49,931 bases of DNA, taken from positions 1-49,931 of the forward strand of contig JALQYK010000037.1 of NCBI GenBank assembly GCA_023254115.1, given 5' to 3'. Made by a program: the position numbers and the translations under genes. The stretch is from Polynucleobacter sp. GTDB lineage: Bacteria > Pseudomonadota > Gammaproteobacteria > Burkholderiales > Burkholderiaceae. The notes under the pieces are model-generated. The model was not told where the DNA came from and made no database searches. It saw only the letters and a list, made by a program, of their open reading frames with translations. Positions 26,041 through 28,851 of the stretch are shown here, piece after piece. Each line of letters begins with the position of its first letter. The first letter of the stretch is position 1.

Positions 26041-27525
26041 ATGAACTCACCTTTGGCATTAGAAAATCCACTTCAGCTTACTAGAGCTGATGCACTAAAA
26101 ATTGCTAAAGACATTCTTTTGGCGCCAGCAGGGATTACAGAGCAAGATTTACAAAATACGCTATCTCATATGCATCAGCATCATCTAGATGATGCTGATT
26201 TATATTTCCAAAGAACTCACAACGAAGCCTGGAGTCTTGAAGAAGGCATTGTCAAATCTGGTAGCTTTAGCATTGATCAAGGCGTGGGCGTTAGAGCCGT
26301 CAGCCATGACAAAACTGCTTTTGCATATTCCGATGAAATCAGCGCTAGCGCATTAAAAAATGCGGCAGAAGCAACACGAGTGATTGGCCCAAATAACAAT
26401 CAGACTTATATCAGCCCCAAGTGGGCAACGCCAGCAACTCATGCTTTGTATCAATCACTTAACCCTTTAGATAGCCTAGATGCAAAAGCAAAGATTGCAT
26501 TACTAGAGGATATTGAAAGAAAGGCAAAAGCCAAAGATCCCCGTATTGTTCAAGTAATGGCAGGGCTTGCTGGCGAATTTGATGTAGTTCTTGTGGCGAG
26601 AGCTAATGGTGTTTTAGCTGCAGATATCAGACCCCTCGTGCGTGTATCAATCACGGTAATTGCCGAACAAAATGGTCGCCGCGAAGTCGGATCATCAGGC
26701 GGTGGCGGTAGATTTGATTATCACTTTTTTGTTACTGAAAAAATTGATCAATGGATTAATGAAGCCGTCAGATCTGCACTAGTTAATTTGGAATCAAGAC
26801 CAGCTCCTGCGGGCCCTATGACTGTAGTGCTGGGTCCAGGTTGGCCGGGAGTTCTTCTGCATGAAGCAATTGGTCATGGTCTTGAAGGTGACTTTAACCG
26901 CAAGGGATCATCCGCCTTCTCTGGAAAAATTGGGCAAAGAGTCGCCGCCAAAGGTGTCACAGTTGTTGATGACGGCACAATCGCAGGACGTCGCGGCTCA
27001 CTGTCAGTTGATGATGAAGGCAACCCAACACAATGCACCACGCTCATTGAAGACGGCATCCTTAAGGGATATATACAAGACAGTCTTAATGCCCGCCTCA
27101 TGAAAATGCCAGTCACAGGCAACGCAAGACGCGAAAGCTACGCAGCTCTACCTATGCCTCGTATGACAAATACCTATATGCTAGGCGGCAAGGATGACCC
27201 TAATGAAATTGTTGCGAGCATTAAAAAAGGCTTGTATGCCGTTAACTTTGGCGGCGGACAAGTTGACATCACTAGCGGTAAATTTGTGTTTTCAGCATCA
27301 GAAGCTTACTGGGTTGAGAACGGCAAAATTCAATACCCTGTCAAAGGCGCAACCATTATCGGAAATGGCCCTGAATCCCTCAAAGATATCAGCATGATTG
27401 GTAATGACATGGACCTAGATAGCGGCATTGGAGTTTGCGGAAAAGATGGGCAAAGCGTTCCCGTAGGAGTCGGTCAACCCACCCTCAGAATCGATAATAT
27501 GACTGTTGGCGGGACAGCCCAATAG
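26041..27525 (+). CDS. tldD: Metalloprotease TldD
   Basis: ADLYFQRTHNEAWSLEEGIVKSGSFSIDQGVGVRAVS; zinc-binding HEAIGHGLEGDFNRKGSSAFSG. Confidence 0.97.
   Translation: MNSPLALENPLQLTRADALKIAKDILLAPAGITEQDLQNTLSHMHQHHLDDADLYFQRTHNEAWSLEEGIVKSGSFSIDQGVGVRAVSHDKTAFAYSDEISASALKNAAEATRVIGPNNNQTYISPKWATPATHALYQSLNPLDSLDAKAKIALLEDIERKAKAKDPRIVQVMAGLAGEFDVVLVARANGVLAADIRPLVRVSITVIAEQNGRREVGSSGGGGRFDYHFFVTEKIDQWINEAVRSALVNLESRPAPAGPMTVVLGPGWPGVLLHEAIGHGLEGDFNRKGSSAFSGKIGQRVAAKGVTVVDDGTIAGRRGSLSVDDEGNPTQCTTLIEDGILKGYIQDSLNARLMKMPVTGNARRESYAALPMPRMTNTYMLGGKDDPNEIVASIKKGLYAVNFGGGQVDITSGKFVFSASEAYWVENGKIQYPVKGATIIGNGPESLKDISMIGNDMDLDSGIGVCGKDGQSVPVGVGQPTLRIDNMTVGGTAQ
26174..26199. repeat. 26-bp perfect palindrome inside tldD
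   Basis: ATCAGCATCATCT|AGATGATGCTGAT, read directly. Confidence 0.95.
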
Positions 27526-27558
27526 CGAAAACCACAAAAACTGTGCTACATTAACCAA

Positions 27559-27636
27559 ATGTCTGCAAATAACTTTTACTTCTTTTACTTTTGGTTCTCA
27601 GCCCTAGGCGGTCGAGAGGCAGAAATTCAAGCGTAA
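27559..27636 (+). CDS. Attenuation leader peptide MSANNFYFFYFWFSALGGREAEIQA upstream of DAHP synthase
   Basis: 26-codon ORF (not in the supplied ORF track) with F-Y-F-F-Y-F-W-F in eight consecutive codons, followed 18 nt later by an intrinsic terminator and then an aromatic-amino-acid biosynthesis gene. Confidence 0.88.
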   Translation: MSANNFYFFYFWFSALGGREAEIQA

Positions 27637-27661
27637 ATTTCAAGCACTCAAAATAACCGCC
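27607..27661 (+). promoter_or_regulatory. Putative antiterminator pairing of the aro attenuator
   Basis: GGCGGT (27607-27612) is exactly complementary to ACCGCC (27656-27661), which is also the 5' arm of the terminator stem. Confidence 0.65.
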
Positions 27662-27684
27662 GACGCTAACGGCGGTTTTTTTTT
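27655..27684 (+). terminator. Intrinsic terminator of the aro attenuator
   Basis: Stem AACCGCC (27655-27661) / GGCGGTT (27671-27677), 9-nt loop, then a run of T (27676-27684). Confidence 0.9.
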
Positions 27685-27726: not shown

Positions 27727-28851
27727 ATGGTTGATAAAGCTCTTAGCAATCGAGATAGCTGGTATGCCAGTGTCGACAAAACATCTGAGACTGATGATGC
27801 GCGCATCCAAAATATTACGGTGTTGCCTCCACCAGAGCATTTGATTCGCTTTTTCCCAATTCAGGGCACGTCTGTTGAAAAGTTAATCAACAAAACACGT
27901 AAGAAAATACGTGAAATCATGCACAGAAAAGATGATCGACTATTAGTCATCATTGGCCCATGCTCTATCCACGACCCAAGCGCGGCGATTGACTACGCTA
28001 CCAAACTTCTAGAGCAAAGAAAGAAGTATGAAGGGGAACTAGAAATTGTTATGCGCGTGTACTTCGAAAAGCCACGCACAACTGTGGGCTGGAAAGGTCT
28101 GATCAACGACCCATACCTAGATGAGAGCTACAGAATTGATGAAGGCCTTCGCATTGCGCGTCACTTATTAATTGAAATTAACCGTATGGGTATGCCAGCA
28201 GGTAGCGAATTCCTAGATGTTATCTCTCCGCAATACATTGGCGATTTAATTTCTTGGGGCGCTATTGGTGCAAGAACAACAGAAAGCCAAATCCACCGCG
28301 AACTAGCTTCTGGTATCTCAGCACCAATCGGATTTAAGAATGGCACCGACGGCAACATCAAAATTGCTACTGATGCCATCCAATCAGCTAGCAGACCTCA
28401 TCATTTCTTATCAGTTCACAAAAATGGTCAAGTGGCTATTGTTGAAACAAAAGGCAATGAAGATTGTCACGTTATCTTACGTGGTGGCAAAACCACCAAC
28501 TATGATGCAGAGAGTGTTGCCAAAGCTTGCACCGAACTTGAGGCAGCAAAACTACCAGGTACATTGATGGTTGACTGTTCACACGCTAACTCAAGCAAGC
28601 AACATGAGCGTCAAATCGAAGTGTCAAAAGATATTGCAGGCCAGTTAGCCGGTGGTTCGACACAAATTTTTGGTGTTATGGTGGAAAGTCACTTGTGCGC
28701 TGGAGCACAAAAGTTCACTCCAGGCAAAGACAATCCAAATGACCTTAAATATGCAACAAGTATTACTGATGCTTGCATTGGCTGGGATGACTCTTTGAAT
28801 GTTCTAGAGATTCTTGCTGAAGGTGTAAGACAGCGCAGAAAAAAGAAGTAA
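27727..28851 (+). CDS. aroG: 3-deoxy-7-phosphoheptulonate (DAHP) synthase, class I AroG/AroF type
   Basis: LLVIIGPCSIHDPSAAIDYA, VMRVYFEKPRTTVGWKGLINDPYLDESY, SQIHRELASGISAPIGFKNGTDG, VDCSHANSSKQ. Which paralogue (AroG, F or H) cannot be fixed from the sequence alone. Start preceded by an AAGGGG-like RBS. Confidence 0.95.
   Translation: MVDKALSNRDSWYASVDKTSETDDARIQNITVLPPPEHLIRFFPIQGTSVEKLINKTRKKIREIMHRKDDRLLVIIGPCSIHDPSAAIDYATKLLEQRKKYEGELEIVMRVYFEKPRTTVGWKGLINDPYLDESYRIDEGLRIARHLLIEINRMGMPAGSEFLDVISPQYIGDLISWGAIGARTTESQIHRELASGISAPIGFKNGTDGNIKIATDAIQSASRPHHFLSVHKNGQVAIVETKGNEDCHVILRGGKTTNYDAESVAKACTELEAAKLPGTLMVDCSHANSSKQHERQIEVSKDIAGQLAGGSTQIFGVMVESHLCAGAQKFTPGKDNPNDLKYATSITDACIGWDDSLNVLEILAEGVRQRRKKK

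Follow-up and report, generated by a model that had tools for sequence, protein, structure and literature searches.

How is the gene for the first enzyme of the shikimate pathway controlled at this locus, and does the short reading frame rich in aromatic codons that precedes it play a part? The window, by which we mean the whole 49,931-nucleotide stretch analysed, carries a leader ORF at 27559–27636 on the forward strand (ATG 27559–27561, stop TAA 27634–27636), which encodes 25 amino acids, MSANNFYFFYFWFSALGGREAEIQA, and contains eight consecutive aromatic control codons at 27574–27597 (FYFFYFWF; 5 Phe, 2 Tyr, 1 Trp). Downstream on the same strand lies an intrinsic terminator at 27655–27684, AACCGCCG-acgctaa-CGGCGGTT, with an 8-bp stem (27655–27677) and a 9-T tail (27676–27684). 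Its 5' arm, arm 3 (AACCGCCG, 27655–27662), includes ACCGCC at 27656–27661, and this is also the partner of antiterminator arm 2, GGCGGU at 27607–27612, which lies within the leader ORF, 12 nt downstream of the point where the last aromatic codon begins. A 1:2 (anti-antiterminator) hairpin is predicted inside the leader ORF at 27590–27624, forward strand (UUUUGGUUCUCAGCC / GGUCGAGAGGCAGAA, -13.6 kcal/mol). An earlier sequence-only reading had pointed to the ORF, the hairpin with its T tail and the GGCGGT/ACCGCC complementarity; all three were confirmed to the base.

The arrangement is not a chance one. Among ATG-started ORFs of 8–50 codons on either strand of the window, the leader ORF alone has 7 or more aromatic residues within a stretch of 8, the runner-up having 6 in 8 and lying on the opposite strand. 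Of 200 dinucleotide shuffles of the 151-nt leader segment, 198 folded less stably than the native sequence (z -2.57). Chance occurrence genome-wide was judged from the window together with a covariance model built from 48 leaders, for which the window locus was the only strong match in its own genome (4.9e-19; next 0.019).

The gene downstream (27727–28851, forward strand) had been taken for a DAHP synthase and this holds: it is a type-I enzyme by TIGR00034 (522.9 bits vs a cut-off of 173.2) and PF00793. We use the name aroG for convenience, since the protein falls below the AroG equivalog cut-off (541.3 vs 568) and passes that of an AroH-named subfamily (493.9 vs 463). Its nearest relative, at 98% identity, comes from a Polynucleobacter MAG, and in the AroG tree the window locus falls within Polynucleobacter. 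On the chromosome tldD comes first, then the leader and then aroG, with 90 nt from the leader stop to the DAHP synthase start. It is the sole DAHP synthase detected in the genome, where we found no second type-I and no type-II enzyme and no TrpR or TyrR-type HTH protein; as the assembly is 92.8% complete, these absences are provisional.

We hold with high confidence that the locus is a ribosome-mediated transcription attenuator controlling the DAHP synthase gene by the supply of aromatic aminoacyl-tRNA. Transcription would start at the leader AUG or no more than one or two bases from it, and ribosomes would load on the leaderless 5' end. With charged tRNAs ample, the ribosome would reach the stop codon, arm 2 would be covered or held in the 1:2 hairpin, arms 3 and 4 would make the terminator, and an RNA of ~126 nt would be released. 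Were Phe-, Tyr- or Trp-tRNA scarce, the ribosome would be expected to stall within 27574–27597, leaving arm 2 free to take arm 3 before arm 4 is synthesised, and with arm 3 so occupied polymerase would read through into the DAHP synthase gene.

Folding with a ribosome mask agrees with this scheme. The mask reached 12 nt beyond the first base of the A-site codon (an assumed width), and folding was done on RNA that still lacked arm 4. In the window, arm 3 was paired upstream with a probability of 0.95–1.00 whichever of the eight aromatic codons the ribosome stalled at, whereas with the ribosome at the stop codon this pairing fell to 0.00; without a ribosome it was intermediate (0.56). Most of 17 other leaders folded in the same manner showed the same behaviour. 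With the ribosome stalled at the Trp codon, antiterminator and terminator differ little in energy (-20.7 vs -21.8 kcal/mol). After arm 4 has been made the terminator is no less stable than its competitor, which calls for a kinetic switch. We infer that the antiterminator prevails because it forms earlier, as happens in classical attenuators. Mask folding, together with the covariation of arms 2, 3 and 4 described below, bears out the mutually exclusive antiterminator suggested earlier. Computationally, the locus displays three features of the attenuator class: clustered end-product codons, a terminator between ORF and gene, and an antiterminator that shares a terminator arm and is placed so that a stall would free it.

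The device is broadly conserved across the order. An aromatic-run leader with an ACCGCC...GGCGGT-type terminator precedes the gene at 77 of the 80 best named Burkholderiales loci, which include Polynucleobacter, Limnohabitans, Variovorax, Rhodoferax, Polaromonas, Hydrogenophaga, Rhizobacter, Leptothrix, Sphaerotilus, Aquabacterium and others; in these leader-bearing loci the leader stop lies 80–185 nt from the aligned gene start. For the order at large, 80 AroG upstream regions were chosen by similarity from a sample of 300 genomes, and leader and terminator were found in 47 of them. Searching the same 300 genomes, the covariance model returned full-length matches (E <= 2.5e-8) in about 77, spanning some 14 families (f1, f3, f4, f8, f10–f13, f20, f23, f30, f39, f43 and f49), and in all of the ~65 genomes with both coordinates listed the match lay just upstream of AroG when compared by eye. 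The sequence-only reading had staked its case on a conserved aromatic run and arm pairing, and both, the latter as GGCGG/CCGCC, are seen across the order. No copy of the element was found in a plasmid collection.

Outside the order the leader appeared in 1 of 40 regions of a class-level sample, and a class-wide origin was rejected on that count. The single case, L186 (genome G463), has a near-identical device, MNAARASFYFWYYFPKPLAEEGLRSP, with terminator AAGCCGCCAG...CTGGCGGCTT, and may possibly reflect horizontal transfer. The model also matched four loci of family f28 (L210–L213), in which a YFYWY leader (e.g., MITFSAVFNAYFYWYRSSRRLQGASLD) and a GCCGCC...GGCGGC terminator precede a gene other than aroG, encoding a ~205-aa protein (MNEVSDARQIARES...) that has no significant Pfam match.

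What is conserved appears at the level of RNA. In 125 of 125 leaders it is the ORF itself that holds the best complement of the terminator 5' arm. Arm 2 mostly lies 10–14 nt beyond the first base of the last aromatic codon, where one would expect the downstream edge of a ribosome stalled on that codon. The outermost position of arms 2, 3 and 4 reads C/G/C in 24, T/A/T in 13 and, as a wobble, T/G/C in 2 of 48 non-redundant leaders. Both sides had changed in 13 cells against a shuffled mean of 5.9, a value reached in 0 of 500 shuffles, with such both-side variation limited to one of the seven arm 2/3 pairs. Shuffled post-run segments seldom equalled the observed arm pairing (median p 0.025). A null that preserves the peptide through synonymous codons was weaker: it was not significant in the window (p 0.35), because Gly-Gly codons are G-rich anyway, and had an order-wide median of 0.17, so that codon content accounts for part of the pairing. 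Despite sequence differences, most families are predicted to form a local 1:2 hairpin over arm 2.

These data also bear on the idea that the leader encodes a conserved small functional peptide, for instance a membrane peptide, with the terminator merely ending an upstream or sORF transcript. The leader peptide is indeed hydrophobic, and near relatives keep its C-terminal GGREA well, but the core of arm 2 is read in frame 0, 1 or 2 in 82, 7 and 36 leaders, respectively, split by lineage, giving unrelated C-termini (PGGRE, PADGE, LAEG, PLAVE, HRR) while the complementarity is kept. It follows that RNA and not peptide is conserved, and peptide-level conservation was rejected as the cause of GGREA on this reading-frame evidence. 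Peptide length and N-terminus are moreover variable, and the ORF tracks the DAHP synthase gene and no other neighbour; we therefore give the peptide explanation almost no weight.

The terminator is kept in every leader-bearing locus, and in practically all of them it consists of a perfect G+C stem followed by 6–9 T. It could be argued that the hairpin simply terminates tldD, which ends at 27525, ~130 nt away, and that the aromatic ORF is incidental. However, a conserved predicted promoter lies between tldD and the leader, leader and terminator are kept together upstream of aroG in many families, and the three-way covariation takes in an arm inside the ORF, leaving a terminator of tldD barely credible. 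The uniformity of the stem and T tract likewise speaks against a leader that acts on DAHP synthase translation, by sequestering its SD or by reinitiation, or through Rho, rather than by intrinsic termination. The short distance from leader stop to gene start in the window would suit such a mechanism, but the gene's own SD lies 3' of the hairpin and shows good pairing (-7.8 kcal/mol), and we judge this route highly improbable. The earlier proposal of ribosome-mediated attenuation is therefore supported by conservation, covariation and mask folding alike.

A predicted extended -10 element, TGC-TACATT, lies at 27544–27552 on the forward strand, its hexamer occupying a conserved position. In 76 of 78 close loci a TA[CGA]A[TG]T hexamer, exemplified by TACATT and TAGAGT, ends 6–8 nt before the leader ATG, and in 75 of 78 TG occupies -3/-2 of the hexamer; in L008 and L061 the ATG at this distance lies a little 5' of the scored one. 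From this spacing the start site is expected at 27559 +/-1, the A of the leader ATG, and the leader in these close loci is probably translated from a leaderless transcript. SD pairing at the leader is weak (mean -2.3 kcal/mol; -1.5 in the window). A start downstream of the ORF, which would have told against the sequence-only reading, is not what promoter prediction gives. The predicted leaderless trait is lineage-specific, as most loci of f1, f3 and f8 show a -10-like box ~20–40 nt upstream instead.

The control codons vary between lineages. Phe codons occur in every leader and Tyr codons in nearly all, while Trp codons occur in 71 of 78 close loci and are missing in several families, making Phe the common denominator. 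Judged by codons, the lineage of the window could respond to Phe, Tyr and Trp. The suggestion that such leaders sense the whole aromatic pool is thus in keeping with codon content in this lineage but does not extend to the families without Trp codons. It should be considered, too, that codon content alone is no proof of what is sensed, since the Phe-Tyr-Phe leader of Corynebacterium glutamicum aroF responds to Phe and not Tyr (PMC11802643).

The leader is absent at 3 of the 80 named loci (L022, L038 and L068), where the tldD stop lies a few tens of nt or less 5' of the gene. The three form one fully supported clade adjoining leader-bearing Polynucleobacter and nested among leader-bearing lineages, and loss of the attenuator in one Polynucleobacter clade is consequently the simplest reading. 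The order sample contains three more Polynucleobacter genomes without the leader. At L022, L038, L068, L083, L084 and L086, where the tldD stop is near the gene, a TAAAAT box stands directly before the DAHP synthase ATG, a position from which the gene itself may be leaderless in these loci.

The mechanism belongs to the trp/phe class of attenuators. Like pheL-pheA (Phe_leader, RF01859) and enterobacterial trpL, it combines a short control-codon ORF, a mutually exclusive antiterminator and terminator, and intrinsic termination; unlike them, it stands at the first shikimate step, has a mixed Phe/Tyr/Trp run and an arm 2 wholly in the ORF, and probably lacks a 5' UTR. The window locus scored 19.8 bits against RF01859, for which the gathering threshold is 55, and no Rfam family was found at gathering in 15 leader-bearing loci. 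RNAI, Phe_leader and Leu_leader appeared at a relaxed Rfam E-value; these sub-threshold matches were apparently terminator-driven and were set aside. The leader represents a family of RNA elements for which Rfam 15 has no entry. A parallel is found at aroR-aroF of C. glutamicum, for which the original study is reportedly that of Neshat et al. in 2014. There, too, an aromatic (Phe-Tyr-Phe) leader peptide precedes a DAHP synthase gene controlled by attenuation, and Phe limitation raises readthrough (PMC11802643, PMC4046766). Attenuation at the first shikimate enzyme, which the sequence-only reading had singled out, is accordingly supported here but has a precedent. Compared by description, the C. 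glutamicum system differs in belonging to an unrelated phylum, in having three aromatic codons against eight here, and in lacking Trp. The Sinorhizobium meliloti trpL/rnTrpL leader differs in using Trp only and in lying upstream of trpE(G), and in Sinorhizobium the released RNA (rnTrpL) and peptide (peTrpL) act in trans (PMC7298713). By analogy, the terminated ~126-nt leaderless RNA and/or the aromatic peptide might act in trans across Burkholderiales, coordinating other aromatic or unrelated genes, an extension that we regard as unlikely. Searches by sequence and by topic, covering mainly the open literature, gave no prior description of such a leader in Burkholderiales, although one may exist elsewhere. 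A 'Burkholderiales-1' motif is listed by name in a table of PMC2864571.

TrpR and TyrR regulons have been described in gammaproteobacterial lineages, with neither reconstructed for this order (PMC5343134), and the leader offers a testable answer to how shikimate-pathway entry is controlled there. The combination of three-arm covariation and loss in a single clade provides a good natural system for studying attenuator evolution, and a leader without a 5' UTR would allow the role of leaderless initiation in regulation to be tested cleanly. In pathway engineering, the leader is the sequence to delete where aromatic overproduction is desired. The genome of the window also carries a second classical attenuator at L204:1501-1625 (G000:C25:18788-18912), in which a Leu-run leader, MNYSLSLLLLLELGQNLGSVHA, and a terminator lie upstream of leuA.
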